This document shows positions 8,439 through 53,153 of a DNA stretch of 64,000 nt, in pieces. The stretch is from Anaerobacillus sp. CMMVII (GTDB lineage: Bacteria; Bacillota; Bacilli; Bacillales; Anaerobacillaceae): contig NZ_JACEHK010000002.1 in NCBI RefSeq assembly GCF_025377685.1, positions 310,001 to 374,000 on the forward strand, given 5' to 3'. The notes under the pieces were generated by a model. It had not been told where the DNA came from and did not search any database. It saw nothing but the letters and a program-made list of their open reading frames with translations. Both the position numbers and the translations under genes were made by a program. How positions within the stretch are numbered: position 1 is the first letter of the stretch; every line of letters begins with the position of its first letter.

Positions 8439-8623
8439 AGGCTCTTTTTGTAAACTTTGTGGCTTTTAGGTCGTCTTTTGAGAATAAATAAGCTTTTTGG
8501 GACAAATTTATTTGTCCCAATGGCTTATTTATTCTCAAAAGCTTCACGCAAAGCGTGAAGAACCAAGCGTTCGCTTGGTTACGACCTATAAGCTATTAGC
8601 AACAATCTTTTAGAAAAGAGCCT
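8439..8623. repeat. Family A intergenic repeat, copy with full hairpin set
   Basis: 185 bp ending in near-inverted repeats: AGGCTCTTTTTGTAAACTTT at the left and the inverse of TCTTTTAGAAAAGAGCCT at the right. Inside are nested hairpins: GGGACAAA/TTTGTCCC inside AATAAATAAG/CTTATTTATT, then CTTCACGC/GCGTGAAG, then CCAAGCG/CGCTTGG. A second right end, CGAAAAGAGCCT, follows at 8681-8692. Together they fill the 396-bp gap between ytpB and speD. Confidence 0.85.
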
Positions 8624-8751
8624 AAAAAACTCCTGTCTTTTCTAACAACTAGCTAAGTTATCCAACCAAATCTCTGTTTACGAAAAGAGCCTTTGGGTAA
8701 GATAAAAATAATAAACTGAACCTAATATTACGTAGTAAGGGAGTTTTTAAA

Positions 8752-9561
8752 ATGAAACTTACACCAGAGCAAAGAGTAACATTACATGGGTTTAATAATT
8801 TAACGAAATCATTAAGTTTTAATATGTATGATGTTTGTTATACGAAAACAAAAGAAGAGCGTGAGGCATACATAGAGTATATTGACGAACAATATAGTGC
8901 TGAGAGATTGACGCACATTTTAAAGACTGTGTCTGATATCATTGGTGCTCACGTTTTGAATATTGCACAACAAGACTATGTACCACAAGGTGCAAGTGTA
9001 ACGATGTTAATATCTGAAGAGCCAGTAGTAGAAGTACCTACAGACCAATTCGAGGAATCACCAGGACCACTTCCGGATTCGGTTGTAATGGCTTTAGATA
9101 AAAGTCATATTACCGTCCATACGTATCCAGAGTATCATCCAGATGAAGGGATTAGTACGTTTCGAGCAGATATTGATGTTTCAACTTGTGGAGAAATCTC
9201 CCCTTTAAAAGCATTAAATTATTTAATACATTCATTTGAGACGGATGTAATGACAATTGATTATCGTGTTCGTGGATTTACAAGGGATATCCATGGTCAT
9301 AAATTATTTATTGATCATGAAATTAATTCCATTCAAAATTACATTCCAGATGATGTGAAAAATTTATTTGATATGATCGATGTAAATGTATATCAAGAAA
9401 ATATTTTTCACACTAAATGTAAACTAAAAGAGTTTGATTTAAATAATTATTTATTTGGCTATAAAAAAGAAACACTTGATCAAGAAGAAGCAGATGAAAT
9501 TACGGAGAAGTTAACAATGGAAATGGATGAAATTTTTTACGGTAAAAATATGTATAACTAG
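8752..9561 (+). CDS. speD: SpeD, S-adenosylmethionine decarboxylase proenzyme (E. coli-type)
   Basis: Makes decarboxylated SAM, the aminopropyl donor for spermidine. At 269 residues it is the long proteobacterial-style form rather than the about 125-residue SpeH form common in Bacillus. The self-cleavage site that yields the pyruvoyl group is Lys117-Ser118 in [13 protein letters not shown]. Start is supported by AAGGGAG upstream of 8752. It stands alone behind a family A repeat; spermidine synthase is not in the window. Confidence 0.93.
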
Positions 9562-9661
9562 AAACGCGCTATGTTTTCAAATCGATTTCCGCTCTTGCCT
9601 AACCCACATTCACACTTCGTTGCATAGGTTAGAATTAAGGAACAGGGAAGGTGGTGTTATT

Positions 9662-9913
9662 ATGTATGGAGGATTTGGACCGGTAACTGGCGCAGCAGCA
9701 GGTACTACTATGGGTGCGGCTACACCAACTTATGGTGCTCCTATGCATGGGGTTGGCCACGCAGCAGCCCCGCTAGCAGGCTGTGGTTATGGCGCAATGC
9801 CAGTAGGTCATGTGGCTCCTGGATATGGGGCTGGAAGTGGCTTTACGTTAATCATTGTGTTGTTTATTTTATTGGTGATTATAGGTGCTTCTTGGGCAAC
9901 ACCCGCTGTCTAA
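9662..9913 (+). CDS. YjcZ-like small membrane protein, probably sporulation-related
   Basis: 83 residues. The N-terminal 50 are Gly/Ala/Pro-rich and low in charge (MYGGFGPVTGAAAG). The C-terminal GFTLIIVLFILLVIIGASW is a single membrane helix matching the YjcZ-family signature. Start at 9662 is set by AAGGTGG upstream; an open frame extends further 5' but without a site. YjcZ-type proteins are small spore-associated proteins of unknown role. A strong terminator follows directly. Confidence 0.7.
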   Translation: MYGGFGPVTGAAAGTTMGAATPTYGAPMHGVGHAAAPLAGCGYGAMPVGHVAPGYGAGSGFTLIIVLFILLVIIGASWATPAV

Positions 9914-9922
9914 TGAAGAAAA

Positions 9923-9955
9923 GAGAGGCTGACATCTGTCAGCCTCTCAATTTTT
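9923..9955. terminator. Bidirectional terminator between convergent genes
   Basis: GAGAGGCTGA (9923-9932) pairs with TCAGCCTCTC (9939-9948), with TTTTT on the plus side and a T-rich tail on the minus side. It serves the YjcZ-like gene and ytiB. Confidence 0.85.
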
Positions 9956-10529
9956 ATAAACTCATGGTTGTTTGATAGCCATTAACTACTTTTTCCAGTT
10001 TGCCTGTTTCAGGATCGATAATTAGGCCGTGAACAGGGACATTATTAGGTAGTAGCGGATGATTCTTAACGATTTCAACACTATGTTTCACACTATCCTC
10101 TACTTCATTAAACCCCTTTAACCACGAATCGATATTAACGCCTGAATACCGCAGAACCTCTAGAGTTTCTTGATTAATTCCCCTTGATTTTGCTTTATCT
10201 AAAACAGAATTTGCTTCTAATCTAGCCATCCCACAGTTATGATGACCAATGACTAGCACCTCTTGGGCACCTAGTTCATAAATCGCTACGATAATGCTTC
10301 GCATAATACTTCCGAATGGATGAGAGATAACAGCTCCAGCATTTTTGATAATAACTGCATCACCTTTTTGAAGGTTTATAGCTCTAGGAAGTAATTGTTT
10401 TAATCGAGTGTCCATACAAGTTAGGATAACTAATTTTTTGTTTGGAAACTTTGTTGTCATAAATGGTTCATATTGCTTTTCACTAACAAATGCTTCGTTA
10501 AATGATAAAATCTGATCTAATAATGACAT
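9954..10529 (-). CDS. ytiB: YtiB, beta-class carbonic anhydrase
   Basis: 191 residues with the full beta-carbonic-anhydrase zinc site: Cys38 and Asp40 in CMDTRL, and His96 and Cys99 in GHHNCG. It interconverts CO2 and bicarbonate in the cytoplasm. With the gamma-class protein at 5853 the window holds two unrelated carbonic anhydrase families within 5 kb. Matches B. subtilis YtiB in length and motifs. Confidence 0.92.
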   Translation of the reverse strand: MSLLDQILSFNEAFVSEKQYEPFMTTKFPNKKLVILTCMDTRLKQLLPRAINLQKGDAVIIKNAGAVISHPFGSIMRSIIVAIYELGAQEVLVIGHHNCGMARLEANSVLDKAKSRGINQETLEVLRYSGVNIDSWLKGFNEVEDSVKHSVEIVKNHPLLPNNVPVHGLIIDPETGKLEKVVNGYQTTMSL

Positions 10530-10648
10530 TTGACTTCCCCCTTTCTTTAAGTTTTATAGAAAGTAGAAGAGATGTCAATTGCATTATTTAATAATTTTGA
10601 AATTTTTCGTAAACCTTGTTGCTTTTAGAAAAGAGCGTTTTGAAAAAA

Positions 10649-11221
10649 CTATCTTTTTTCAATCGCTACAATAAAAGGTGGATTATTTTTTTGATTTAAA
10701 AATTGATAGCTTAAGACATGACCATCTGTTTGGTTAATGTTACTTACGTAATCTAAAAGTTGAGCTTTTTCCTTTTTGCCTTCTTCATGACCATGATAAA
10801 CGACAAGAACGATGATGCCGCCTTTCTTTAACATCAAGAAAATATCATGAATCGCTTTCAGTGTAGTTTCAGGTGTTGTCACGATACTTTTATCGCCACC
10901 AGGTAGATACCCAAGATTAAAAATAGCACCAGCAAGGTTTCCATGTACATTTGCTGGAACTAATCCGTTAGCCTCTTGGTGTCCTTTTTGAAAAAGAGTT
11001 ACCTGTGTAAGGGCATTATGTTCTAGTAAACGCTCTTTCGTCTTACAAATCGCAGTTTCTTGGATATCAAATGCATAGACACGACCTGCCTCACCCACCA
11101 ATTGAGCCAAAAACAAGGTGTCATGTCCATTTCCGGCAGTGCCATCAATAACACTGTCTCCTTTGGAAACGACATTTTGTAAGAGTTGTCTAGCGAAAGG
11201 TAGGATTCCTAATACATTCAT
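10649..11221 (-). CDS. mnmM: MnmM (YtqB), tRNA wobble-uridine methyltransferase
   Basis: 190-residue class I SAM methyltransferase with motif I VIDGTAGNGHDT near residue 25 and the family motifs FNLGYLPGGDKS and VVYHGHEEGKKEK, as in B. subtilis YtqB. YtqB was shown to methylate nm5(s2)U to mnm5(s2)U in tRNA. It starts 3 bp after the mnmL stop, so the two form an operon. Confidence 0.9.
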   Translation of the reverse strand: MNVLGILPFARQLLQNVVSKGDSVIDGTAGNGHDTLFLAQLVGEAGRVYAFDIQETAICKTKERLLEHNALTQVTLFQKGHQEANGLVPANVHGNLAGAIFNLGYLPGGDKSIVTTPETTLKAIHDIFLMLKKGGIIVLVVYHGHEEGKKEKAQLLDYVSNINQTDGHVLSYQFLNQKNNPPFIVAIEKR

Positions 11222-11224
11222 CTA

Positions 11225-12181
11225 TTAGTTCCCCCTTTGATAATACTTCCCTTGCCAACTGTTTCTACTTTTTAGCTCAGCCTCGATGCCATTTAAGACT
11301 TCCCATTTATTTAAGCTCCACATTGGACCGATCATTAAGTCGGCAGGTCCATCTCCTGTTAATCGGTGGATGACCATTTCTGGTGGAATGACTTCAAGCT
11401 GATCACAGACAAGTTTAATGTAGTCTTGGGCACTCATAAATTCAAGCATTCCTTTTTCATATTGCTTTACCATAGGTGTTTTCTTTAATAAATGGAGCAG
11501 ATGAATTTTTATGCCTTGAACATCAAGCTTTGCAACCTCTCTAGCTGTTTCCATCATCATGTCATAATTCTCAAGTGGAAGTCCATTAATAATATGGGAA
11601 CAAATGCGAATGTTATGTTTTCGTAACTTTTCAACACCATCAACATATGTTTGATAATCGTGGGCGCGATTGATTAAATCCGCGGTCCGCTGGTGAACTG
11701 TTTGTAAGCCTAATTCAACCCATAAATATGTCTTTTTATTCAGTTCACCTAAATACTCTACGACATCATCAGGTAAACAATCGGGTCTTGTTGCGATGGA
11801 AAGACCAACAACACCTTCTTGTTCTAAAATGACTTCATACATTTCTCTTAATTGTTCTACAGGCGCATACGTATTTGTGTATGCCTGAAAATACCCAAGA
11901 TATTTACCGTTTGGCCATTTTGAGTGCATCTTTTCTTTTATGTTATTAAATTGTGTGATGAGGTCATCTTTGCGATCACCTGCAAAATCTCCAGATCCAC
12001 GTTCGCTACAAAAGGTGCAGCCACCACTAGCAACAGAACCATCTCGGTTGGGGCAATCAAAACCAGCATCTAAAGGGATTTTAAAAATCTTTTCACCAAA
12101 CTGTTGGCGAAGGTGAAAATTCCATGAATGGTACCTTTTAACGCCAAACATTAAAGGGACTTGCTCAATTATTTTATTCAT
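11225..12181 (-). CDS. mnmL: MnmL (YtqA), radical SAM protein for mnm5s2U tRNA modification
   Basis: 318-residue radical SAM protein of the YtqA/YhcC type. The cluster-binding cysteines are in the region DCPNRDGSVASGGCTFCS (near residue 45-60). YtqA has been linked genetically to converting cmnm5 to nm5 at the wobble position, with YtqB (MnmM) finishing the modification in bacteria lacking MnmC. The adjacent mnmM here gives the same two-gene unit. Confidence 0.88.
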   Translation of the reverse strand: MNKIIEQVPLMFGVKRYHSWNFHLRQQFGEKIFKIPLDAGFDCPNRDGSVASGGCTFCSERGSGDFAGDRKDDLITQFNNIKEKMHSKWPNGKYLGYFQAYTNTYAPVEQLREMYEVILEQEGVVGLSIATRPDCLPDDVVEYLGELNKKTYLWVELGLQTVHQRTADLINRAHDYQTYVDGVEKLRKHNIRICSHIINGLPLENYDMMMETAREVAKLDVQGIKIHLLHLLKKTPMVKQYEKGMLEFMSAQDYIKLVCDQLEVIPPEMVIHRLTGDGPADLMIGPMWSLNKWEVLNGIEAELKSRNSWQGKYYQRGN

Positions 12182-12238
12182 AAATTAATCCTTCCTAAAA
12201 AGCGATAGTAAATATTAAAATGAAATTACTACGATGCT

Positions 12239-12272
12239 TAAACTCAAAACTCAAAACTCAAAACTCAAAACT
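12239..12272. repeat. AAACTC satellite overlapping the ltaE stop
   Basis: About four tandem AACTCAA heptamers. The last residues and stop codon of the threonine aldolase gene (VLSFEF-stop) are encoded inside the repeat. Similar AGAGTTT/GAGTTTTGAGTTT tracts lie near 24396, 32865, 35650-35745 and 58656-58757. Confidence 0.75.
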
Positions 12273-13273
12273 CTCTCTATAGCTTGTTCAATTTTCTCTC
12301 TATTTAAATCATAATGAGTCGTAAAACGAACTGTTTCTGGGCCGAAAGCTACTGCTAAAATTCCTACGTCTTTAAGTTTTTCGATAAAATGTGATGAATG
12401 CATCCCCGTCTTTTGGATATCAATGAGGACGATGTTTGTATCTACACTATTTGCTACGGTGAGAAGAGGATGATTCGCTAAGCCTTGCGCAAGTACTTTT
12501 GCATTTTCATGATCTTCTGCCAAGCGGTCCACCATTTCAGTTAGAGCGATTAAACCAGCTGCACCTAGAATACCTACCTGTCTTAGGCCTCCCCCTAAAC
12601 GTTTCCGCCATTTTCGTGCCTTCTCAATAAAGTCTCTAGGTCCTGCCAAAATGGAACCAACAGGAGCACCTAGCCCTTTTGACAAACATACCTGAACAGT
12701 CGTTGTATATTGGGTAAATGCTGTTAGTGGCTCTCCTAAAGCAATGGCTGCGTTAAAAAGACGCGCACCATCTAAATGGACAGGGATCTTATGATCTGAT
12801 GCGATTTGATAAAGCTTTTCCATATGACTTGGGGGAATGGCAACGCCACCAGCACGGTTATGGGTATTTTCTAAGCAGATTAAACTAGTATCAGGAAAGT
12901 GAATATCATCCGTCCGGATTGCGTTTTGCAACTTTTGTGGATCGATAAAACCACCTTCTGACTTTATTGTGCGTGGTTGCACTCCTGCAAAAGCAGAAAT
13001 AGCCCCACCTTCATAAAAGACAATATGAGAATCTTCATCTAAAATAATCTCATCACCTTGACGACAGTGGGTTAGGACAGCAATCTGATTTCCTTGTGTT
13101 CCACTTGTTACGAACAATGCAGCCTCTTTGCCTAGCATTTCAGCCGCTAAATTTTCTAGCTCATTGATTGTTGGGTCTTCTCCATAAACATCATCACCAA
13201 CCTCAGCAAGGTACATTGCTTCACGCATCGATTTCGTTGGCCTTGTAATTGTATCACTTCGTAAATCAATCAA
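12251..13273 (-). CDS. ltaE: Low-specificity L-threonine aldolase
   Basis: 340-residue fold-type I PLP enzyme that cleaves L-threonine/allo-threonine to glycine and acetaldehyde. Family features are MIDLRSDTITRPT at the N terminus, VYGEDPTINELE, HLDGARLFNAA with the Asp that contacts the PLP ring nitrogen, and SLSKGLGAP-type CLSKGLGAPVGS with the PLP lysine. A GGAGG-containing site precedes the ATG. The C terminus runs into a heptamer satellite, so the last few residues may be recent. Confidence 0.9.
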   Translation of the reverse strand: MIDLRSDTITRPTKSMREAMYLAEVGDDVYGEDPTINELENLAAEMLGKEAALFVTSGTQGNQIAVLTHCRQGDEIILDEDSHIVFYEGGAISAFAGVQPRTIKSEGGFIDPQKLQNAIRTDDIHFPDTSLICLENTHNRAGGVAIPPSHMEKLYQIASDHKIPVHLDGARLFNAAIALGEPLTAFTQYTTTVQVCLSKGLGAPVGSILAGPRDFIEKARKWRKRLGGGLRQVGILGAAGLIALTEMVDRLAEDHENAKVLAQGLANHPLLTVANSVDTNIVLIDIQKTGMHSSHFIEKLKDVGILAVAFGPETVRFTTHYDLNREKIEQAIERVLSFEF

Positions 13274-13375
13274 TATGAATCCTCCTCATGTAGGCTTTTT
13301 GAGCATTTTATCACAAAATGTCATTAAACTACTAGGAAAAGCTTTATGTATACAACCTAGATTACATGAATTAAA

Positions 13376-13547
13376 AACAGTCTTAGGTAACTATCGTAAA
13401 CAATGTGGCTACTTAAAATAATTCGGTGCATAAACAGATAGTTTTTCCTTTAAACAAATCGTAATTTAGGAAAGATTTCCAAAGATAATAATGTTTCAAG
13501 TTCATCACTCTCTAATTGAAACAACAATCTTTTCGAAAACAGTCTTT
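13376..13547. repeat. Family A-like repeat, diverged copy
   Basis: The 357-bp gap between ltaE and the MFS gene holds a diverged family A copy, from ACAGTCTTAGGTAACTATCG (left) to ACAACAATCTTTTCGAAAAC-AGTCTTT (right). The usual internal hairpins are missing. Nothing else is seen in the gap. Confidence 0.5.
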
Positions 13548-13630
13548 ACTAAAAATAACATTGCTAAATCTAATGGCATAGAATACAATTTTCTTAGAGA
13601 AACGAAATAAAGAGAGAGGTAGAGGTCATT

Positions 13631-14827
13631 ATGCCTAAAGCGTTATGGTTGCTTGTCATCGGAATGGTGATTAACGTAACAGGCGCTTCTTTTTTGTGGC
13701 CGCTTAACACCATTTTTATTCACCAGGAATTGGGTAAATCATTAAGTGTCGCTGGATTAGTGCTCATGCTAAATGCAGGAGCGGGAGTGATTGGTAACTT
13801 AATTGGTGGCAAACTTTTTGATCGAGTTGGTGGCTACAAAACCATTTTATTGGGAATTACCATTACAATGGTAAGTGCGTTTACGTTAGCGTTAAATCAC
13901 AGTTGGTATTATTATGTTGTTTTAATGATTGGATTAGGGTTTGGCTCCGGTGTAACCTTCCCTTCAATGTATGCAATGGCAGGTTCCGTTTGGCCAGAGG
14001 GAGGGAGAAAAGCATTTAACTCAATTTATGTTGCTCAAAATCTTGGCGTTGCCGTAGGGGCAGCTTTAGGTGGTCTTGTCGCATCGATCAGATTTGATTA
14101 TGTATTCTTTGCCAATGGATTTATGTATGTAATCTTCTTCCTAGTAGCTTTTTTCGGTTATAAAAATATGAAGGTAGATACATCAGAAACAGGACAAACG
14201 AATATATTTGATCAAAGCGTTGCAATTGAAAATAAGGCTAGATTCAAAGCACTCATCATTTTATGTGTAGGCTTTATTACTTGTTGGATTGCCTATGTTC
14301 AGTGGCAAACCACGATCTCTGTTCATACTCAATCGTTGGGAATTAGTTTAACTCAGTATAGTGTTATTTGGACAGTTAATGGAGCGTTGATTGTCCTAGG
14401 GCAACCGTTAATCTCTGCATTAATAAAGAAATGGTTCCATACGTTGAAGGGCCAAATTTACTTTGGCTTAGCTATTTTTATGGTTTCATTTTTTGTCGTA
14501 GCCCAGGCAGAGGTATTTGTAGTCTTCGTTGTAGCTATGATTATCTTAACTATTGGTGAAATGTTCGTCTGGCCTGCCGTCCCTACAATCGCTCATCAAT
14601 TAGCACCAAAAGGAAAAGCTGGATTTTACCAAGGGATCGTGAATAGTGTGGCAACAGGCGGAAGAATGATTGGACCGTTCCTTGTTGGTGTCGTCGTTGA
14701 TTTGTTTGGTATGCAGACGTTGTTTTACGGATTAATGATTTTCTTTCTAATTGGTTTCGTAAGTACGTATTTATATGATCGTGGTTTACAAGGAACTGTT
14801 GTCCAGAAAGAATTGAATGTTAGCTAG
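13631..14827 (+). CDS. yttB: MFS transporter, YttB-like
   Basis: 398 residues with twelve predicted membrane segments. The loop between helices 2 and 3 carries the MFS motif GGKLFDRVGGYKT. AGAGAGGTAGAGG lies just upstream of the ATG. It precedes leuS, and in B. subtilis yttB is also beside leuS, which is the reason for the name. Substrate is unknown; it resembles drug/solute antiporters. Confidence 0.75.
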   Translation: MPKALWLLVIGMVINVTGASFLWPLNTIFIHQELGKSLSVAGLVLMLNAGAGVIGNLIGGKLFDRVGGYKTILLGITITMVSAFTLALNHSWYYYVVLMIGLGFGSGVTFPSMYAMAGSVWPEGGRKAFNSIYVAQNLGVAVGAALGGLVASIRFDYVFFANGFMYVIFFLVAFFGYKNMKVDTSETGQTNIFDQSVAIENKARFKALIILCVGFITCWIAYVQWQTTISVHTQSLGISLTQYSVIWTVNGALIVLGQPLISALIKKWFHTLKGQIYFGLAIFMVSFFVVAQAEVFVVFVVAMIILTIGEMFVWPAVPTIAHQLAPKGKAGFYQGIVNSVATGGRMIGPFLVGVVVDLFGMQTLFYGLMIFFLIGFVSTYLYDRGLQGTVVQKELNVS

Positions 14828-14871: not shown

Positions 14872-15099
14872 TTGATAGAACTTGAAGCAGTTGAAGATGT
14901 TCTGCTTGAAAAGGAACCATCTAATGCGAGAAGTGCATGTAAATTACATGTACTATGTAGTAACCAAAAGCAACTGTTCAGTATAGAATATAAAAACTTT
15001 GACAAGAATGTGAATAAGCTCTTGACTTTTATTCGACAAATTCATACAATACAAATTATGAACGAACTTAACAAGTGTAAAAACAATGATGAGGAGTAG
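14872..15099 (+). CDS. Doubtful 75-residue open frame overlapping the leuS leader
   Basis: TTG-start frame MIELEAVEDVLLEKEPSNAR... with no clear ribosome binding site. It overlaps the leuS promoter (15022-15050) and its last 15 codons lie in the T-box leader. The interior reads fairly protein-like (LFSIEYKNFDKNVNKLLTFI), so a small real protein cannot be excluded. No family is recognised. Confidence 0.25.
   Translation: MIELEAVEDVLLEKEPSNARSACKLHVLCSNQKQLFSIEYKNFDKNVNKLLTFIRQIHTIQIMNELNKCKNNDEE
15022..15050 (+). promoter_or_regulatory. SigA-type promoter of leuS
   Basis: TTGACT at 15022-15027 and TACAAT at 15045-15050 with exactly 17 bp between them, directly upstream of the T-box leader. 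Confidence 0.75.
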
Positions 15100-15328
15100 T
15101 AGTGGAACCTCGTGCCTAGAGAATTGACGGTTGGTGCAAGTCAATCATAGAGATCCGCGAACTCGCCTAAAAGTTGCAAGGGTGAAAGTTTAGTAACTCT
15201 TGTCGTCCGGCCGCGTTAAGGTGTCAAATAAGTGAGTGTATCCAACACTAAATTGGGTGGTACCGCGGGAATAATTATGTTATTAACCTCTCGTCCCTAA
15301 CGTTAACGTTAGTGGTGGGAGGTTTTTT
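15058..15328 (+). promoter_or_regulatory. T-box leader, leucine (specifier CUC)
   Basis: A tRNA-sensing antitermination leader. The T-box GGGTGGTACCGCGG is at 15255-15268. Stem I features include AGAGAATTGACGGTTGGTGC upstream and the specifier context GCGAACTCGCC, with CTC (Leu) at 15162-15164. The terminator is a 20-bp stem with one mismatch at 15286-15325 (ACCTCTCGTCCC.../...GTGGTGGGAGGT) followed by T6. Uncharged tRNA-Leu should favour antitermination and leuS expression. Confidence 0.92.
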
Positions 15329-18145: not shown

Positions 18146-18196
18146 AAAAGGTTGTTTTCAAAAAGCAAGTAGCAACAATCTTTTAGAAAAGAGCTT
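18146..18196. repeat. Family A repeat, short deleted copy
   Basis: Only the two ends remain: AAAAGGTTGTTTTCAAAAAG and GCAACAATCTTTTAGAAAAG-AGC, joined with no internal hairpins. It lies in the 410-bp leuS-sigma gap, just upstream of the ECF promoter. Confidence 0.6.
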
Positions 18197-20348: not shown

Positions 20349-20547
20349 AAAGGTTGTTTTCGTAAAGTTTATTGCTTAAGTGAACACTAAGATTTCACTA
20401 CTTATTTAGTAAGCATTGCTCTTTTCTTACTTATTTTACTGGGTGAATTCTTCAACTAAGGGATTTTTCTAATTATCTTTGGTTAAATAGCAACAAGTTT
20501 TTTTGTGCGACGAGTAACCGCAGGAGCAATGTTTACGAAAAGAGCCT
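20349..20547. repeat. Family A repeat, long variant A2, copy 1
   Basis: 199 bp with ends AAAGGTTGTTTTCGTAAAG and GTTTACGAAAAGAGCCT. The middle (ACACTAAGATTTCACTACTT, TTTAGTAAG..TGCTCTTTTCTTACT) matches the reverse complement of 52807-52975 over its length but lacks the hairpins of the other family A copies. At 20506-20528 it carries a GC-rich insert, TGCGACGAGTAACCGCAGG-AGCA, also found in 32981-33041. Confidence 0.8.
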
Positions 20548-20591: not shown

Positions 20592-20635
20592 CAAAAAAGT
20601 ATGAAAAGAAAAATTTTCCCATCATACTTTTTTAA
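20592..20635 (-). terminator. Hairpin downstream of ytfP
   Basis: AAAAAAGTATG and CATACTTTTTT form an 11-bp stem. On the minus strand it ends in a T-run and would terminate ytfP after passage through the family B repeat. Confidence 0.5.
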
Positions 20636-20796
20636 AAGATAAGAATGTATAAAATTTCAACGTAATAACTGTCTAGCTCCACCGCCCAGCCCCTCGAGGT
20701 CAAATAACCTTCGAGAATAAAAGTGAAAGAGCACACTTTTTTTCTCGAAGAACATTTGCTAGTCGGGGCTTAACAGGGCGCTTGCGCTTTTCTTAA
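20634..20796. repeat. Family B intergenic repeat, copy 1
   Basis: Starts AAAAGATAAG, contains GTCTAGCTCCACCGCCCAGC and CCCTCGAGGTCAAATAACC, and ends GGGCGCTTGCGCTTTTCTTA. The two halves fold back on each other: CGCCCAGCCCC with GGGGCT..GGGCG, and AACCTTCGAG with CTCGAAG. Other copies are at 32925, 45657 and 59459. Confidence 0.88.
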
Positions 20797-20809
20797 TAGT
20801 GTGAACTAA

Positions 20810-22933: not shown

Positions 22934-23013
22934 AAGGCTCATTTCGTAATCATTGTTTAGAATTAAAACAAATTGGTTGCTCGATATACAAGTTGTAGTT
23001 AGAAAAAGAGCCC
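22934..23013. repeat. Family A repeat, short copy
   Basis: 80 bp with ends AAGGCTCATTTCGTAATCATTG and AGTTGTAGTTAGAAAAAGAGCC. No internal hairpins. Lies just upstream of the lipoprotein gene. Confidence 0.55.
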
Positions 23014-32894: not shown

Positions 32895-32926
32895 CCCCAA
32901 CTCTAAACGAGTCGGGGGAGTTTTTT
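32895..32926 (+). terminator. Terminator of the pseudouridine synthase gene
   Basis: CCCCAACTC (32895-32903) pairs with GAGTCGGGG (32909-32917) with one mismatch, then T6. Confidence 0.75.
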
Positions 32927-33177
32927 AAAAGATAAGAAAGCATATGCGCTTTTAGAACTTGGTGTCTAGCTTCAGGCGCCATCTGCTCCTGCGGTTACTC
33001 GTCGCAAAAAAACATCTGCTCCTGCGGTTACTCGTCGCAAAGGTGCAGAGAAGGTTGACTCATGGAAGTTCTTGGCTCGAGGTCAAATAACCTGCCAGAT
33101 ATAAAAGTGAAAAGCGCACTTTTAATCTGACAGAACATTTGCTTGTCGCCGATAGGCGGGCGCCTTGCGCTTTTTTT
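32925..33177. repeat. Family B repeat, copy 2, with an internal duplication
   Basis: Longest family B copy. It starts AAAAGATAAGAAAGCATATGC, has GTCTAGCTTCAGGCGCC and CTCGAGGTCAAATAACCTGCC, and ends GCGGGCGCCTTGCGCTTTT. Between the arms it holds two 28-bp copies, 33 bp apart (32981-33008 and 33014-33041), of a unit containing CTGCTCCTGCGGTTACTCG; the same unit is inverted in the family A copy at 20506-20528. Confidence 0.85.
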
Positions 33178-33189
33178 ACTATATTACAT

Positions 33190-33990: not shown

Positions 33991-34178
33991 AAAGGTTGTT
34001 TTCATAAACGTTGTTGCTTTTAAGGTCGTCTTTTTAGAATAAATAAGCTTTTTGGGACAAATTTATTTGTCCCAATGGCTTATTTATTCTCAAAAGCTTC
34101 ACGCAAAGCGTGAAGAACCGAGCATTCGCTTGGTTACGACCTAAAAGCTAATAGCAACAATTTTTTAGAAAAGAGCGT
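33991..34178. repeat. Family A repeat, full copy
   Basis: 188 bp nearly identical inside to 8439-8623: ends AAAGGTTGTTTTCATAAACG and AACAATTTTTTAGAAAAGAG, with the GGGACAAA/TTTGTCCC, CTTCACGC/GCGTGAAG and AGCATTCGCTTGG hairpins. Lies about 75 bp upstream of pepV. Confidence 0.88.
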
Positions 34179-37048: not shown

Positions 37049-37334
37049 CTAAATGAGCCGAAAGACAAATAAATTTGTCTTTCGGCTCATTTAGTTTGTA
37101 AAGCTTTACACGTAGTGTGAAGAGACAAGCATTGCTTTGCTTCGGTCATAATGCAAATAATAATTTGATATAGCTGTTATTTCAAAGATAGTTGCTTTTA
37201 AATTAGTTGGTAATGAAAAAAATCCCAAAAAATCAGGGGCATTTTTCTTAACATTTAAAGGGTTTGTAGGAAGAAATATGGATTATTTATTGGATTATTG
37301 TCCATAAAGCCACATAGTACGAAAAGAGCCTTTG
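37049..37334. repeat. Family A-derived repeat with 22-bp perfect hairpin
   Basis: The 449-bp gap between MFS and DUF4129 genes contains CTAAATGAGCCGAAAGACAA (37049-) folding perfectly on its inverse up to 37094 with a two-base loop, then CTTTACACGTAGTGTGAAG, AAGCATTGCTTTGCTT, and a right end ACGAAAAGAGCCTTT at about 37319-37334. It is a diverged family A copy. It would also terminate transcription of the MFS gene. Confidence 0.65.
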
Positions 37335-42256: not shown

Positions 42257-42490
42257 AGACTGTTCTCCTAAACTTTGTTGCTTTTAGATCGTCTTTTGAA
42301 AGCGTGAAGAACCAAGCATTTGCTTGGTTACGATCTAAAAGCTAATACAACAATCTTTTAGAAAGGCTGTTTTTGCATAGATTGTTGTCTTTCAATTACT
42401 CAGTATAAGGCTTACTGCTTCCGATCAACTATCTGTCCGTACCGGATTTAAACGATTGAATAACAACAAAGTTTGTGAAAAGAGAGTTAT
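42257..42490. repeat. Family A repeats, nested pair
   Basis: First unit 42257-42370 with GACTGTTCTCCTAAACTTTG and CAATCTTTTAGAAAGGCTGT ends, missing the GGGACAAA hairpin but keeping GCGTGAAGAACCAAGCATTT. A second unit to about 42490 starts inside the first's right end (GAAAGGCTGTTTTTGC) and closes with CAACAAAGTTTGTGAAAAGAG. Nesting implies successive insertions. Confidence 0.65.
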
Positions 42491-45444: not shown

Positions 45445-45454
45445 TAAGTTTCTC

Positions 45455-45610
45455 AAGGGTTGTTGCTATTGAAATAGCTAGTAATGATTAACACGCTAAG
45501 GTCACGGGCCATCTTTTCAAGGTTTATTGAAGCTTCACGCAAAGCGTGACGTTATGCATTCACTTAGTTTCGAACAAAAAGATAATACAATAACTTAAAG
45601 AATAAAGCCT
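45455..45610. repeat. Family A repeat, diverged copy
   Basis: AGGGTTGTTGCTATT at the left and AACTTAAAGAATAAAGCCT at the right, with GAAGCTTCACGCAAAGCGTG inside. Part of the 594-bp gap between cidB and the NERD gene, which is made up of repeats. Confidence 0.55.
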
Positions 45611-45656
45611 AAAAAAACTATATTACGTCTGCAAATTAGGAAAAGGTTGTGATACT

Positions 45657-45822
45657 ATTTTAAAAGATAAGAAAGCATATGCGTTTTTAGTATTTGTTGT
45701 CTAGCTCCACCGCCCAGCCCCTCGAGGTCAAATAACCTTCGAGAATAAAAGTGAAAGAACACACTTTTTTCTCGAAGAAGATTTGCTTTTCGGGGCTAAA
45801 ATGGGCGCATACGCTTTTCTTA
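45657..45822. repeat. Family B repeat, copy 3
   Basis: Close to copy 1: AAAAGATAAGAAAGCATATG, GTCTAGCTCCACCGCCCAGC, CCCTCGAGGTCAAATAACC, and an end ATGGGCGCATACGCTTTTCT. Arms fold as in copy 1. Confidence 0.88.
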
Positions 45823-45877
45823 TTGCAATCTTTTTTATGTTTTAATTATACTTTTGAGGGATTTTCATTATTGTGAC

Positions 45878-45978
45878 GTTTTCGAAAGACTGTTGCTTTT
45901 GGGTTCGTCACGTAAAGCGTTCGCTTGGCTACGCACAAAAAAGCTATTAGCAAAACTCTCTTCAGAAATGAGCTTTTA
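45878..45978. repeat. Family A repeat, short copy
   Basis: GTTTTCGAAAGACTGTTGCT to TTCAGAAATGAGC, with CACGTAAAGCGTTCGCTTGG between; the long hairpins are gone. Confidence 0.5.
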
Positions 45979-46038: not shown

Positions 46039-46959
46039 GTGGCTCACTTAATCAAAATAGAAGACTATGTTTCTCGTTATCAATATGATATGTACCGGTA
46101 CCCAGGGCAATTTTCACGCTTAAAGCGAGAACGGTGGGATAGACTGAAACAAGAATGGGAAGCTTCATATCAAAATGGTATTCCGTCTGTAATTCAGGAA
46201 GCCGAGGAACAAAGAAAACCTTTAAAAGGTCCTTTGGCTGTGTTTAGAAAATGGCCAAAGCGAAAGTCTGGGGAACCAAGCGTTAAAGAGGTTAAACCAT
46301 TTCAATTTAAATATAGAACTTTAGCTGAGGTAAAGAGTTCTTTCCTCAGAGATCTTTTTGAATTTCAACTAAATTGGGCGAGTTCTACCTTGCGGGAAAA
46401 ATCAACAATTAAGACTGATTATTTTTATGATGAACCTTTAAAGTGGTTTTTACAATCGTTTCCGGATAACTGTTTTGTTCTTTATTATCCAATTGTAACG
46501 TACCCAAAAGCAACCGTTCAGTTTGATATTCTGATAATCTCCCCAACAGATGTATGGTGCATCGTAAATCTCGATGGTTCAGAAAATACAATCTATCAAA
46601 CATTTTCAGAACGCTATTGGCTAAAAGTCGAAGCTGATACTGAGAAGAAAATCATTAATCCTTTGTTATCATTAAATAGGATGAGTACGATCGTTAAAAG
46701 GATCTTAACTGATAAAGACTTAGACATGAAGGTACGAAAAGTAGTGCTTACGAAAAAAGGATATATAGACGTAGATGCACAGCGAAGTGGCATCTTGCTA
46801 TTAGACCAGCGAAGCGTTTATGATTGGAACGAAAAGATGAAGAATAACTCATCCCCGATAAAATCAGTACAACTTAAGTTTTCACAATCATTACTGGACG
46901 TATGCAATACAACTTCAAAGCTAAGAGATGACTTTATTGTTGATGACGATGATTTTTAA
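46039..46959 (+). CDS. NERD-domain-like protein
   Basis: 306 residues. Residues about 105-260 resemble a nuclease-related NERD domain (FDILIISPTDVWCIVNLDGS is the central strand pattern with the conserved D). Flanks are helical and charged. No membrane segment. In B. subtilis, ytlQ occupies the same position next to ytlP; equivalence is likely but not provable here. Start after GGAGGAAGATCC. Confidence 0.65.
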   Translation: MAHLIKIEDYVSRYQYDMYRYPGQFSRLKRERWDRLKQEWEASYQNGIPSVIQEAEEQRKPLKGPLAVFRKWPKRKSGEPSVKEVKPFQFKYRTLAEVKSSFLRDLFEFQLNWASSTLREKSTIKTDYFYDEPLKWFLQSFPDNCFVLYYPIVTYPKATVQFDILIISPTDVWCIVNLDGSENTIYQTFSERYWLKVEADTEKKIINPLLSLNRMSTIVKRILTDKDLDMKVRKVVLTKKGYIDVDAQRSGILLLDQRSVYDWNEKMKNNSSPIKSVQLKFSQSLLDVCNTTSKLRDDFIVDDDDF

Positions 46960-47085
46960 GAACACTTTTATACAATATTGTTATGTTCGCTGTCTTAGAT
47001 CAAAAAATATCATGTAGAAAGAAACCTATGGAGTTTGATATAGATACTTATAAGAGATATAATAAAGGCAAGTAAATATAGCGGT

Positions 47086-47111
47086 GTAACCCTCCTCTTG
47101 TGGAGGGTTAC
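47086..47111 (+). terminator. Hairpin between the NERD and HicB-like genes
   Basis: GTAACCCTCC / GGAGGGTTAC perfect 10-bp stem with loop TCTTGT; T-poor tail, so a partial terminator or attenuator. Confidence 0.55.
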
Positions 47112-47131
47112 TTATTGGAAGGACGTATCTG

Positions 47132-47445
47132 ATGGGAAAGCAAGTAGTTCAAGAGAGTTCTTATCATTCATACACTTGGATTGTTCGGAAACAACTCAAC
47201 TTCTTTGATGGTACAGAATATATGATTGAAATCAAAGAATTAGAGGGTTGTGTTAGTTACGGAAAAACATTTGCTGAAGCCAAAAAGGTATACAGGAATC
47301 AATCGAACTCTGGTTTAAGCATCGTTATAAAAATAAAGCGATACCAGCAAAATCCCAAAAACATATTATCCATCTAGAACCAAACATGACAAAAGAAGAA
47401 TTTGAGCAAATAAATAAACGCCTTTTGCATATCTTACTAACCTAG
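47132..47445 (+). CDS. HicB-like antitoxin-family protein, orphan (one frameshift)
   Basis: The N terminus YTWIVRKQLNFFDGTEYMIEI...ELEGCVSYGKTFAEAKK has the partial RNase H-like fold of HicB (beta strand, E-x-x-G-C, G-x-T-x-x-E-A). One added A in AAAAA 47282-47286 replaces the early stop by KGIQESIELWFKHRYKNKAI and extends the frame to 47445 (about 104 residues). No DNA-binding tail and no HicA toxin is adjacent, so it may be a solitary HicB-type protein. Start at 47132 follows GGAAGGA. Confidence 0.7.
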
Positions 47446-47485
47446 AGGATCAGTTAAAGAATAAACTTTAACTGATCCTCTTTTT
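47445..47485 (+). terminator. Terminator overlapping the HicB-like stop
   Basis: Perfect 15-bp stem GAGGATCAGTTAAAG / CTTTAACTGATCCTC with a six-base loop and T5. The stem starts on the last base of the stop codon. Confidence 0.9.
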
Positions 47486-47490
47486 CTGGT

Positions 47491-47708
47491 CTATCGATCA
47501 TTTCTAATTAGTAAGTAAATAATCAATCCTAGAACTGGAAAGAATAGAGTCGCTATCAATACAATTATTGCGTACTCTTTGCTGTTCCCTCTGCGTAGTG
47601 CATCGCGATACGCCCAAATACTTGTAACAATATTTAAAATAAGCAAGCCAAAGCTGATGAGGATAACTAAAAGAAGATTCCAAATCCAAAATGCGCTTCG
47701 TAAAACAT
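47491..47708 (-). CDS. Small phospholipase D-nuclease-type membrane protein hidden by a frameshift
   Basis: ATG at 47708 after AAGGTGG reads MFYEAHF and then breaks in AAAA 47688-47691. One added base restores WIWNLLLVILISFGLLILNI, VTSIWAYRDALRRGNSKEYA, IIVLIATLFFPVLGLIIYLL, IRNDR, stop at 47491. The result, about 72 residues with two membrane helices and a basic loop, matches the PLDc_N superfamily of short membrane proteins (N-terminal region of cardiolipin synthases). Role unknown. A different frame, open over 47504-47689, is a shadow. Confidence 0.75.
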
Positions 47709-47961
47709 CAGATTAATCCACCTTTCGTAAATAATTTTTTGAAGTACACATGAATCAATTGTTACAATTTTGATTTACCTTTGAGTTAACTGTTACGCAA
47801 ATGGAAACAAGTGAAAGCGAAGAAAAAAATGGATTTAAGAGAATAAGAAAAATACTATTATAGAAAAAACTGGTATAAGATAAAGAAACATGTTCAATCT
47901 ATTTTCATATAAATATATGAGATAAATAACCAATTTAATCCAAGTAGAGAGGAGAGTTTGT

Positions 47962-50085
47962 GTGGAAAAATATGCATATATTGATGAAATAACGTTGATT
48001 ACTATTCCCTTATCAGAAGTAGAAGAAGAACTCTCCGATTTGATGGTAATAGATGCGTTAACCAAAACGGAAATTCCTTTGATTAATTGGGAAAAGCGAG
48101 ACGATCGTTGGCGTTATGAGATTTATCTAAAAATCCAATTCAATTCGGTCGCGAATATAAATTAATTGCAAACCAACGACTCAGCTATGCAATAAAAATT
48201 GGACAGGTGGTTAGAACGCCTTCCTTTGATGATCTATTTTTTATGATGAGCAGGATTTGGGTGTTAAATACTCTAAAAAGCACTCTACGTTCAAACTTTG
48301 GGCACCAACTGCAACTGAGGTTGATCTCGTTCTCTATGAAGAAAGTGGGGAACGTATTTTTTCCCTTGTGCGATCAAATCGAGGTATATGGGAACAGATT
48401 GTGGAAGGGGATTTAGATGAAACAGCCTATATGTATCGAGTTCGAGTAGATGGGTTATGGCGAGAAGCGGTTGATCCTTATGCTAAGGCGGTCACCTTAA
48501 ATGGTGAAAAAGGAGTAGTCGTTAATCTAAAAGAAACAAACCCAAAAGACTGGATAAAAAATGAAAAGCCGGTTTTAAAGCAAATGACAGATGCGATTAT
48601 TTATGAAGTTAACATTCGAGATTTTTCGATTGATGAAAATAGTGGAATTACTCATAAGGGTAAGTATAAAGGGTTAATCGAGAAAAGTACAAAAGGCCCA
48701 TGGGAAACCATTACCGGTTTAGACTATTTGGTTGATTTAGGTGTTACTCATATCCAATTGTTACCAATTCAAGACTTTGGCAGTGTTGATGAAACGAAGC
48801 AATTTGAATCATATAATTGGGGTTATGACACCATTCATTATAATGCAGTTGAAGGTAGTTATTCATTGGATCCCGCTAATCCTAAAGCCAGAATAATGGA
48901 ATTAAAGGAAGTTATTCAGACTTATCATCAAAGTGGGTTACGAGTTATCTTTGATGTTGTCTACAATCATGTGTATATTCATGAGAAATCTAATCTTGAA
49001 AAAATCGTTCCAGGATACTATTTTCGCTATAATTTAGACGGTAGTTTGGCAAATGGGACAGGAGTGGGAAATGACATTGCATCTGAGCGCAAAATGGTCC
49101 GTAAACTGATCGTTGACTCTGTGACCTATTTTGCGAAAGAATATCAAACAGATGGGTTTAGGTTTGACTTAATGGGAATTCTGGATATTGAAACGATGAA
49201 ACAAATTCGCATGAACCTTTCTGAATTAGACTCGTCGATATTAGTAATCGGTGAAGGATGGGATTTAGATACTGCATTGGCCGGAGATAGAAAGGCAACT
49301 ATTGTGAATTCAAACCATTTATCTGGAATTGGCTACTTTAATGACAAATTCCGTGATACGTTAAAAGGGAGTATTTTCAACCAAGAGTTAAAAGGATTTT
49401 GTAATGGAAACTGGCATTTAAAAGAAGACCTTAAATGTTAGTTAGTGGAAGTACAAATGAATTTTATCAGGTACCCGGAATTTTTAGTGACCCATATAAA
49501 TCCGTAAATTACGTCGAATGTCATGATAATCACACTCTATGGGATAAATTGACGCTGGCAAATCCCACACAATCTGATAACGTTAGAGCTTCGATGCACC
49601 GTTTAGCAACAGCGCTAACAATCTTAAGTCAAGGTATTCCTTTTTTGCATGCTGGGCAAGAGTTTTACAGAACGAAACAAGGAGTAGAAAATAGCTATTG
49701 TTCCCCAGATGAGATCAACAAACTAGATTGGACACAAAAAGCGTTGCATATGGATACAGTTGAGTATGTCAAAGGTCTAATTGCAATAAGAAAACACCAT
49801 TCTGTTTTTCGTATGCTGACAAAGGAAGAAGTTAAAAAAAATATGTACCTACTAGATACTCCAGCTTTTGTAATAGCCTATATGCTAAAGACAGCTAACG
49901 GGATGTTTGTAGTAGCACATAATAGCGCAGAAGAAACCAAAGAATTGATTCTACCTTCAAGCGGGATGTGGGATATTCTCGTTGAGGACGATCGTTCATC
50001 AGTAACTCCATTTCGCTCCATTGAAGGGTCAAGAATTACTTTGTTCCCAATAAGTACAACAGTACTTTTTCACCCAAAAGGATAA
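47962..50085 (+). CDS. amyX: AmyX-type pullulanase, type I (three frameshifts)
   Basis: GH13 debranching enzyme that cleaves alpha-1,6 bonds of pullulan and glycogen-like glucan. The frame is broken at A5 48129-48133, T6 48237-48242 and AAA 49433-49435. One base at each restores continuous protein of about 708 residues, with the CBM48 region (YSKKHSTFKLWAPTATEVDL) followed by the catalytic barrel: YNWGYD, DVVYNHVY, GFRFDLMG, GEGWD and YVECHDNHT. The N terminus has the small AmyX-type extension. No signal peptide, so it acts inside the cell; together with GlgP it could degrade glycogen. Confidence 0.9.
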
Positions 50086-50096
50086 TAATGAAACTG

Positions 50097-50145
50097 AAAT
50101 GTAGAATGAAATTTGTATTTAAATGAATTTTATTCTACATTTTTC
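50097..50145 (+). terminator. Terminator of amyX
   Basis: AAATGTAGAAT / ATTCTACATTT with a 24-base loop, then T-run. The loop is longish, so confidence is moderate. Confidence 0.6.
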
Positions 50146-50332
50146 TACATGTAAATTACATCTTTTAGCAATTTCCGTTTTTTTTCATATGTTCTTTACA
50201 AAAAATGCGTTATACTAGTATTATTAAAGTTTACTGAGGATTTTAAATAACATTTGATTGACTTAAGACAAGACTGTTAAAGTTTTTGAGCATAGAGGCA
50301 CGGTACATTATCGGAAATTGAGGGTGAAGTTG

Positions 50333-51129
50333 TTGGAACATTTATTAGGAGAAGGGTGGCAGGTTATTCCTGCTGGAGGTGCAACAGGAGAAGCATACTA
50401 TGCCCAGCACGGTGAAGAGAAGTTGTTTTTAAAACGGAATTCTTCCCCTTTTCTAGCTGTTTTATCAGCTGAAGGCATTGTGCCTAAGTTGTTATGGACA
50501 AGACGCTTAGAAAATGGAGATGTTATCACTGCGCAACGTTGGGTTAACGGAAGAGAGTTAAAGTCTTTCGAGATGCAAGAAGAGCTAGTTGCCCAACTTT
50601 TACGGAAAATCCATGCTTCTAAAGAACTTCTAGAAATGTTTAAGCGAATTGGTAATGAACCACTCACACCCCAATTGATTGTAAATGAGCTTACTGAAAG
50701 ATTACAGAATATAGATTTGGACCTAGTGATCATTAATGAAGCAATAGAGTTTTAAAGAAGCAGATAGAAGAAATAGAACCAGAACATTTTGTCGTCTGTC
50801 ATTGTGACATTAACCATAATAACTGGGTAATTAGTGAAGAAGGGGATCTATTCTTGATTGACTGGGATGGAGCAATGGTTGCAGATCCTGCCTTAGATCT
50901 AGGCTTGCTATTATATTGGTATATCCCTAGGGAGGATTGGGGACAATGGTTAACCAAATATGGGGTTTTATTAACTGACGATTTATGCAAACGAATGCGC
51001 TGGTATGTAATTTCCCAAACAATTTATGCAATCATATGGCATAAGCAGCGAAGTGCAGAAGACGAAGTAAATTATTGGAATTCGTATTTAGCTGGACTTT
51101 TAGACGTTTCAACAGTTGCTGAAAAATAA
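50333..51129 (+). CDS. ytmP: YtmP, aminoglycoside phosphotransferase-like kinase (one frameshift)
   Basis: APH/choline-kinase fold. The first piece ends at 50755; one added T in T4 50750-50753 gives EFLKKQIEEIEPEHFVVCHC and joins the catalytic motif CHCDINHNNW and the metal motif LIDWDGAMVADPALDLG. About 265 residues. The start is uncertain: TTG at 50333 has GAGGGTG five bases upstream, and other TTG codons lie nearby. In B. subtilis ytmP lies between amyX and trmB, as here. Substrate unknown. Confidence 0.85.
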
Positions 51130-51155
51130 ATGACATTCTTTAAAAGGGATCATCC

Positions 51156-51183
51156 AAAAGCACTCATAAATGAGTGCTTTTTC
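51156..51183 (+). terminator. Terminator of ytmP
   Basis: AAAAGCACTCA / TGAGTGCTTTT with a TAAA loop and T5. Confidence 0.85.
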
Positions 51184-51256
51184 TATGCATATCTTTTGAT
51201 TGAAAAGTGTATCTATTATAGAGGTGAGGATCAAAAACGAAAGAGGAGTATAAAAA

Positions 51257-51675
51257 ATGAAATACATACTGCTTTTTTTCTTAGTTACCGGAATGATATT
51301 CTCTCAAATGGACTTTGCCTATGCACATAAAATGGTCATTGAAACAGTAGAGGCAGGGAAAATAAGAGTTGTCTATGAGGATGGAAGCTTTTCAAGAAGA
51401 ACGATTGTAATTCTTTATGATGCCAATGGGAATGAATTAAGTAGAGGCAGTCTTGACCATGAAGGGTATTTTTTTTATGATCCAAAGAAAGTATCATTGG
51501 TTGTAGCAAATGACGGAATTGGTCACCGAGCTGAATGGGAAGTTGGAACGATAAATCAAAAAAAATCGCACCCAATCGATGGTTTATAGCCAGTATTGTC
51601 GTATTTATTCTAAGCGGTGTCGCATGGATAACCTCATTACGGACAAATAGGAAAAAACAGCAACGTCTAGATTAG
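51257..51675 (+). CDS. Secreted, membrane-anchored NikL-like protein (one frameshift)
   Basis: Signal peptide about 1-23 (LLFFLVTGMIFSQMDFAYA-HK), a domain of about 80 residues with HK-MVIETVEAGKIRVVYEDG, AND-GIGHRAEW, and a C-terminal membrane helix restored by one added A in A8 51558-51565 (NRWFIASIVVFILSGVAWIT). The pattern resembles the NikL/CbiL-type accessory proteins of nickel/cobalt ECF transporters (His after the signal peptide, GHR), but no transporter subunits are adjacent. About 139 residues. Function is inference. Confidence 0.6.
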
Positions 51676-51690
51676 ACTGTTGCTGTTTTT
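51656..51690 (+). terminator. Terminator overlapping the end of the NikL-like gene
   Basis: AACAGCAACGTCTA / TAGAC-T-GTTGCTGTT with one bulged T, then T5. It includes the stop codon region. Confidence 0.75.
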
Positions 51691-51830
51691 ATTTGCCATT
51701 TTGTTACTTGTATTTGAATTCATTAACTTTTAAAGCTTTATGCCAAAAGCCAAAAAGTAACATTATTTTTGTCCGAGTGACTATTTTTGACATATTTCCT
51801 AGGTAATATTATCCTGCTCTGCATCGTAAG

Positions 51831-52097
51831 TTACTCATGTGGATATGGAACTGTAAGGTCTTCAATTGATTGAAGCCATTGATTAATATCTGGTCCATAC
51901 TCAGCACAATTTCCGTTAGTACAATACTCAGAAATATTTGCTAATGTTTGTTGCATGCTAGTATCAAGTTGCTCTTGTCCTTGAAGAGCTTCTGCAAGCC
52001 GGTGTAATTGACTATATTCGTCTGTAGTTCCATAACCCATTTGTTGTTGATTTTTTAAAATATCATAAAGTAAAGTTAATTGATTTTGATAATTCAT
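51831..52097 (-). CDS. ytzH: YtzH-like small protein
   Basis: 88 residues, MNYQNQLTLLYDILKNQQQM..., helical and Gln-rich, with a Cys pair (YCTNGNC) near residue 58. Length, composition and position near ytmP and trmB match B. subtilis YtzH, whose function is unknown. The start follows AAAGGATGTG. Confidence 0.75.
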   Translation of the reverse strand: MNYQNQLTLLYDILKNQQQMGYGTTDEYSQLHRLAEALQGQEQLDTSMQQTLANISEYCTNGNCAEYGPDINQWLQSIEDLTVPYPHE

Positions 52098-52167
52098 AAA
52101 TACACATCCTTTATGTAACTAAATTTACATGTTAGTTTGTGTACGTTGAGGCTCTTTTATCCACTGG

Positions 52168-52655
52168 CTAGTAATAGGTGAGATATGTTTTCGTTAATTT
52201 GTCTGCGAGAGATTGTTTGTTTTTTGTTAAGGTAAGGATCATCCCCGGAAACAAAACCCACTTAATAATTTCTCTTTTAAAATATGTGATTCGTGAAATT
52301 TCACTTGCATTGTCCTTTAAGAGCTTTGTACCAGCAATCATCATTCCGAATGATCGTGGTATTTTAAAAGTTAATGGCAATACAAATACATACAATAGCA
52401 AAACTAAAATTTGAATAACTATACCTGTATAAAATAATTGAGGTTCATTTTCCAAAATGTAGGCTCGGATATAAGCGAAATCATTACTTGGAGAGTTTGA
52501 AGATGTTATCATCCAAGTAGTAGTAAGTACTCCTACCATAATCCATAAGAAAAACATCGCAGTGATATCATAAAAAAAACCCAAAAACCTACTCCAAACA
52601 CCTGCACGATATTGAGTTGCAGTGAGTTTTTGTATCCAATAATCATTAGAGCCAT
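52168..52655 (-). CDS. RDD-family membrane protein (possible N-terminal frameshift)
   Basis: About 160-173 residues with three membrane helices (FFLWIMVGVLTTTWMI, LFYTGIVIQILVLLLYVFVL). An RDD-like start AGVWSRFLGFFYDITAM and the SFGMMIAGTKLL motif are visible. The best start is the ATG at 52655, five bases after GGGAGGTG, in a frame that would need one added A in AAAAA (52626-52631) to join; otherwise the frame extends to 52689 without a site. RDD proteins have been linked to ion or solute movement; role here unknown. Confidence 0.65.
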
Positions 52656-52806
52656 AAATACACCTCCCAATATAATAAATATAATACATTTACGTAATAT
52701 CAGCAGAAAGGTTTCTTAATTTTCACTTTTTTTTGAAAGGGATTTTTAAATACTATAACTTTCACGAAAGAGTGAACCTAATTTATTTATTACTATGTTC
52801 TTTTCT

Positions 52807-52975
52807 AAAGGCTCTTTTCGTAAACATTGTGGCTTTTTAACGTAAAATAATTGGAAAAATTCCTTAGATGAAGATATCACTCAATACATTGAGTAAGAAA
52901 AGAGCACTACTTACTAAATAAGTTGTGAAATCTTAGTATTTTTACGAAAGCAACAAACTTTCCGAAAACAGCCTT
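52807..52975. repeat. Family A repeat, long variant A2, copy 2 (inverted)
   Basis: Reverse complement of the 20349-20547 element: AAAGGCTCTTTTCGTAAAC at one end and TCCGAAAACAGCCTTT at the other, sharing the ACTTACTAAATAAGTTGTG and AGTAAGAAAAGAGCACTAC core. Part of the 466-bp gap 52690-53155. Confidence 0.8.
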
Positions 52976-53153
52976 TCTAAAAGATTGTTGTTATTAGCTT
53001 TTAGGTAGTAACCAAGCGAATGCTAGGTTCTTCACGCTGTGCGTGAAGCTTTCGGGAAAAAATAAGCCATTGGGACAAGTGAAATTGGTCCCAATGACTT
53101 ATTTTTTCTCAAAAGACGACCTAAAAGCAACAAAGTTTACGAAAATAGCTTTG
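52976..53153. repeat. Family A repeat, full copy (inverted), abutting the previous one
   Basis: TTCTAAAAGATTGTTGTT... to CGACCTAAAAGCAACAAAG-TTTACGAAAATAGC, with AACCAAGCGAATGC, CTTCACGCTGTGCGTGAAG and TGGGACAAG/TTGGTCCCA hairpins. The last bases lie within 5 bp of the next gene's stop. Confidence 0.85.

Follow-up and report, generated by a model that had tools for sequence, protein, structure and literature searches.

What are the short, gene-free repeats that lie in the gaps between genes across a 64-kb stretch of the Anaerobacillus sp. CMMVII genome, and what moved them there? The stretch, referred to here as the window, covers G000:C2:310001-374000 of a draft genome of 4.87 Mb and 21 contigs (hereafter the host genome). 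The repeat in question, Family A, is an approximately 183-bp gene-free element in which inverted ends of the GGCTSTTTTCGTAAA type enclose three hairpins in a fixed order. An initial annotation of the window had read Family A as a non-autonomous transposon of the miniature inverted-repeat transposable element (MITE) type. That reading is supported by the copies, their target duplications, a set of empty targets, and a transposase with the same ends that occurs elsewhere. Further, we conclude that Family A is very probably a MITE, i.e., a gene-free non-autonomous DNA transposon, whose terminal inverted repeats are those of an insertion sequence (IS) of the IS1595 family.

Three full copies are present in the window, and the coordinates first given for them were correct to within a few bases. 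All three align with nearly the whole of a 183-nt consensus, which was built from the copies found within an 828-kb sample of the host genome. They comprise a plus-strand copy at 8440-8622 (aligned over 8440-8621 with a score of 334; best of 300 shuffles, 29), a plus-strand copy at 33994-34177 (score, 331; shuffle maximum, 39), and a minus-strand copy at 52796-53150 that is interrupted near its right end by an element of a different family, Family B (aligned over 52974-53149 with a score of 275; best of 300 shuffles, 31). From the outside inward, the end GGCTGTTTTCGTAAACTTTGTTGCTTTTAGGTCGT and its imperfect inverted partner are followed by a long palindrome (hairpin 1), then by hairpin 2 (CTTCACGC-AAA-GCGTGAAG) and hairpin 3 (AACCAAGC-ATTC-GCTTGGTT). 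The near-inverted shared ends recognized at the outset were confirmed, except that the first A of AGGCTC is part of the flanking target and not of the element. The consensus strand folds into a closed stem with three arms, and the folding of single copies (8440-8622 as RNA, −96.5 kcal/mol, z = −15.7; 33994-34177 as DNA, −54 kcal/mol, z = −12.9) bears out the proposed arrangement of three hairpins in fixed order inside paired ends. As the RNAalifold consensus on a MAFFT alignment was poor (−16.5), the fold was taken from the consensus and two single copies instead. The 28 full copies share a mean pairwise identity of 91%, with the closest copy differing by 0.6% from the consensus. No open reading frame (ORF) of at least 70 amino acids (aa) lies inside the full copies.

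The genome-wide search that the MITE reading called for, using a 40-nt core query spanning hairpins 2 and 3 with at most 3 mismatches, returned 68 matches in the host genome and none in six other genomes of the genus. BLAST at an E value of 1e-8, with at most 13 candidates scored per genome, recovered one 87% copy in the congener G003 and short matches in genomes G005, G006, and G016. A DNA similarity search of plasmid and phage records (E value, 1e-5) returned no match to Family A.

Duplicated target bases are likewise present, and they have a fixed length of 8 bp. We paired facing ends lying 60 to 400 bp apart, which gave 120 end pairs, including rival pairings where several ends lie together. 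Perfect 8-bp flank duplications were observed for 24 of them, compared to 1.06 expected from randomly re-paired flanks, and 38 were observed versus 3.2 expected when one mismatch was allowed over the 8 bp. Perfect duplications of 7 bp numbered 2 (0.35 expected), and there were none of 9 bp. Among the full Family A copies, the duplication is 8/8 in 9 and at least 7/8 in 17, and the duplicated 8 bp vary in sequence from copy to copy. In the window, the copy at 33994-34177 is flanked by an 8/8 duplication of TTAATAAA, whereas no clear duplication surrounds the copy at 8440-8622 (flanks match at 2/8) or the interrupted copy at 52796-53150 (5/8). Just beyond the first of these, an extra end motif, GGCTCTTTTCGTAAA, occurs on the minus strand at 8677-8691 (C2 318691).

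For six of the 40 insertions with a duplication of at least 7/8, an uninterrupted target was found elsewhere in the sampled genome; one was not counted because it is a TAA repeat, leaving five that are informative. One of the five is the target of the Family A copy C10:220992-221173, which is inserted in the end of a different element. The clearest case lies in the window, where the Family B element at 52810-52973, with the same ends and a different interior, sits in the right end of the Family A copy at 52796-53150, with TTTCTAAA duplicated 8/8. A second nested arrangement, the one noticed at the outset, lies at 42258-42486 on the plus strand and is a deletion derivative that has lost hairpin 1 and holds a further end; its flanks match at 7/8 as read from the sequence, and its core match at 42299-42364 scores 117 (shuffle maximum, 31). 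Internal deletion derivatives, also anticipated, exist as 97-bp copies that retain only the third hairpin, such as G000:C10:347316-347412, which has an 8/8 duplication.

Comparison with congeners points the same way at most sites. Gaps that hold an element are longer in the host than their counterparts in 8 of 9 cases for G001 (by 158 to 454 nt) and in 8 of 10 cases for G003 (by 136 to 419 nt), and the medians with versus without an element are 229 versus 53 nt (G001) and 191 versus 121 nt (G003). As the gaps could not be aligned in a search for base-by-base empty sites in G001 and G003, their lengths constitute support rather than proof. Empty sites are represented by shorter gaps in relatives at most element sites, with exceptions, and by the five informative uninterrupted targets within the sampled host genome.

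Which enzyme could act on these ends? A 39-nt end query at an E value of 1 matched 8 plasmid records, one of which led to a decayed Priestia flexa element with 1303 bp between Family A-type ends, a 7/8 duplication, and pieces of an IS1595-like transposase. An IS1595 domain search of 38 genomes gave matches in 8, including a 335-aa transposase in G339, and G199 was found to contain two copies of a 1554-bp IS1595-family element with Family A-type ends and 8/8 duplications; the G339 and G199 transposases score 208.6 and 195.6 bits against the NCBIfam IS1595 model. The G339 protein has a match at an E value of 1e-30 in 93 of 397 genomes of the order. We fetched 30 such loci, 22 of which are at least 50% identical to the G339 protein (the clade, some members of which are partial) and 8 of which belong to another IS1595 subgroup (40 to 45% identity). 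Of the 22 clade loci, 14 combine the two ends with a duplication that is 8/8 in 13 cases and otherwise 7/8; L108, L109, and L111 have two ends without a duplication (the right end of L109 being poor), L120 and L127 have the left end alone, L126 and the contig-end locus L114 have the right end alone, and L136 has neither. Such ends were found in none of the eight loci of the other subgroup. The right end of L118 and L119, GGCTGTTTTCGTAAACTTTGTTGCT, is identical to the Family A left end at 25/25 nt, and that of L108 and L115, GGCTGTTTTCTAAAAGATTGTTGCT, is of the Family A right-end type. Family A-type ends, each pair with an 8/8 duplication, also occur in three named plasmid elements (two from Niallia sp. 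Man26 and one from Cytobacillus solani). A transposase gene between such ends, which the MITE reading leads one to look for, thus does exist, but in genomes other than that of the host.

IS1595 members may carry passenger genes, and some of the elements hold unrelated genes between the transposase and the end (L118 771-1436, L119 2578-3291, and L139 3042-3566), with products that include a HAD-like and an alpha/beta-hydrolase-like protein (both by eye) and an annotated DinB-family protein. The 8-bp duplication of Family A matches the IS1595 family, for which 8 bp is given in the IS1016 group (PMC10045372).

Within the order, the exact end motif is present in 154 of the 397 genomes and in 64 of 135 genera. 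In many of these genomes it matches only once or twice, and at least 10 matches occur in 42 genomes (counted from the list). Single end matches mean little, because a reversed control pattern also yields 15 single matches in the listed rows. When 20 ends were sampled from six genomes, five of them outside the genus, 12 bounded an 83- to 577-bp element whose duplication was 7/8 or 8/8, compared to 0.5 expected (G136, 3/4; G323, 3/4; G086, 0/3; G377, 1/3; G338, 2/2; G001, 3/4). At L073 2619-2799 in genome G312, a 181-bp element with the same ends, an 8/8 duplication, and a G+C-rich interior lies beside an ISL3 gene. As the few interiors that were viewed (L073 and Family B) differ from that of Family A, the one set of ends is common to several families of elements.

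Family A combines common ends, an 8-bp duplication, precise insertion into other copies of its superfamily, and, at most of its sites, a shorter corresponding gap in relatives. Elements of the IS1595 family elsewhere in the order share both its ends and its 8-bp duplication. It has the features by which a MITE is recognized: it is short and without a transposase gene, and it has inverted repeats, a duplication of fixed length, many dispersed copies, and empty sites. As a derivative of IS1595, it has the shared ends and the 8-bp duplication; an interior derived from the IS and an autonomous partner in the same genome were not found.

Several results weigh against this reading. The duplication is below 7/8 in 11 of the 28 full copies, interrupted and truncated ones among them. 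The gap means for G003 are reversed, at 26 nt with an element versus 165 nt without, because of two large inserts in G003. The IS1595 domain search detected no such transposase in the host, the protein search with the G339 clade gave no first-look candidate there, and the NCBIfam IS1595 model at an E value of 0.01 gave no match in the host and, among the congeners, only a fragment in G002. The host thus seems to lack an IS1595 transposase, although a copy collapsed at a contig end is possible in a draft genome. Finally, the Family A interior has no convincing resemblance to the fetched IS1595 loci beyond the ends; hence, Family A is an IS1595-end MITE, which need not have arisen directly from one of the sampled ISs by deletion. 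We hypothesize that an IS1595-family DDE transposase supplied in trans would bind the Family A ends and move the element into AT-rich intergenic DNA and that this enzyme may since have been lost from the lineage or may visit on plasmids, with the burst of copies being driven in trans. The three-hairpin interior would then reflect the element's foldback makeup and not a function in the host.

Among the alternatives, the one that fares best, though we consider it quite improbable, is that the host retains the copies for their use as structured signals in RNA or DNA (terminators or mRNA ends), with mobility being a matter of history. The very stable fold, the intergenic location of 34 of 35 copies, and an interior that is less diverged than the ends (2.9% versus 4.8% in 17 copies; P = 0.008) are consistent with such a role; selection or the existence of several source elements could account for the lower interior figure. 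However, compensatory double changes in the hairpins number 3 versus 1.8 expected, so that covariation is not above chance, the copies show no preference for a gene arrangement (24 tandem, 5 convergent, and 5 divergent, on the basis of crude ORF calls), no Rfam family matches at its gathering score, and the core is absent from the six congeners. The analysis yielded no evidence that the hairpins serve the host.

Still less probable is the idea that the host has a transposase of a further, unsampled family with the same ends and that this enzyme moves Family A now. The many copies in a genome with no IS1595 gene would fit it, and 828 kb is the extent of host sequence that was scanned for large elements with these ends. 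Yet the scan of that sequence yielded no element large enough for a transposase that had both these ends and a convincing duplication (end pairs 400 to 4000 bp apart yielded one chance-like pair and no transposase), and the elements elsewhere that have these ends encode IS1595-family transposases. Mobilization by an ISL3-family transposase was our first guess from the ends, given that ISL3 elements have ends beginning GGCTCTT and make an 8-bp duplication; the first bases are indeed similar, and six ISL3 copies in the congener G003 have ends beginning GGCTCTTCGCTAATTT. We now regard it as very unlikely, since the host has no ISL3, just 7 of the 33 end-rich genomes have it, and at none of 38 fetched ISL3 loci is the gene enclosed by two of these ends with a 7/8 duplication; the IS1595 elements with the exact ends largely refute it. 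Hairpin-guided single-strand transposition of the REP/RAYT or IS200/IS605 kind would suit the palindromic interior and intergenic locations but has a negligible chance of being correct, because Family A has inverted ends and 8-bp duplications, and such systems are not known to make duplications of this kind.

The IS1595-end MITE reading ties short intergenic repeats, which are widespread in Bacillus-like bacteria, to a mobilizing enzyme family. With 68 copies of its core in the host species and none across the six congeners, Family A also offers a clean natural case for the multiplication of a mini-transposon in a genome that yielded no such enzyme. Less expected were how far across the order these ends are shared and how large the burst is in a genome of this kind. 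A broader proposal, which we consider rather unlikely as a whole, would be that an order-wide pool of mini-transposons with IS1595 ends undergoes bursts in transposase-free genomes via plasmid-borne enzymes and that the foldback core is, in addition, selected because it helps movement or shields neighboring genes.

The initial annotation had listed at least 10 copies in the window, and 8 of the 10 places hold Family A sequence. In addition to those described above, these are a diverged interior at 37064-37137 (score, 49; shuffle maximum, 34), diverged right parts at 45530-45608 (66; 27) and 45915-45973 (59; 26), and a right end at 18161-18194 (58; 28), all on the plus strand. The other two have only related ends and no Family A interior: the place at 13376 (32; 29) has a single end motif, at 13522-13544 on the minus strand, and that at 22934 (24; 25) has a short plus-strand element at 22936-23012 with no duplication (4/8). 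A minus-strand fragment identified by sequence match at 55191-55257, absent from the earlier list, is probably the source of the highest background scores (82) in the window alignment. A further Family B element lies at 20352-20546 (8/8 duplication); this element and the one at 52810-52973 represent elements of about 160 to 225 bp with Family A-type ends, 8/8 duplications, and a different interior, and exact-end counts and the elements sampled in the congener G001 suggest that the type is common there. Unrelated to these, a different dispersed repeat of the TTTTAAAAGATAAGAA...GTCTAGCTCCA type (families D1, D2, and D4) occurs at 20624-20798, 32923-33181, 45652-45826, and 59450-59568; a T-box leader at 15077-15301 lies 5' of an 805-aa ORF that is probably a leucyl-tRNA synthetase (by eye); and a 52-nt repeat is present in two tandem copies, 73% identical, at 4992-5095.

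The literature that we searched, which did not extend to ISfinder and most subscription papers, contained no report of Family A or its end sequence, and the accessible part of PMC10969869 contains nothing on IS1595. The short repeats bcr1 to bcr18 are described in PMC6542083 as specific to the Bacillus cereus group and tied to a TTTAT motif, with bcr1 present in tens of copies. Like Family A, they are short and dispersed and show signs of mobility (PMC6542083). We considered and rejected an identity with them: Family A has IS1595 ends and 8-bp duplications of varying sequence, a distinction from bcr repeats that is drawn from their description in that paper and not from their sequences. The IS1595-family ISs of the Bacillales (e.g., L138 and L139 on Niallia sp. 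Man26 plasmids) have ends and 8-bp duplications as in Family A but carry a transposase of about 335 aa and often a passenger gene, whereas the full copies of Family A have no ORF of at least 70 aa. The kind of element is already known, because an IS1595-related MITE with 8-bp repeats is listed for Haloquadratum walsbyi (PMC3852290). That element, related to ISHwa6 of the IS1595 family, is 165 bp long and resembles Family A in being non-autonomous and in having 8-bp direct repeats, with inverted repeats of 25 bp (PMC3852290). It is, however, archaeal and listed in 7 copies, whereas Family A has 68 core copies in a Bacillus-like genome and a three-hairpin interior.

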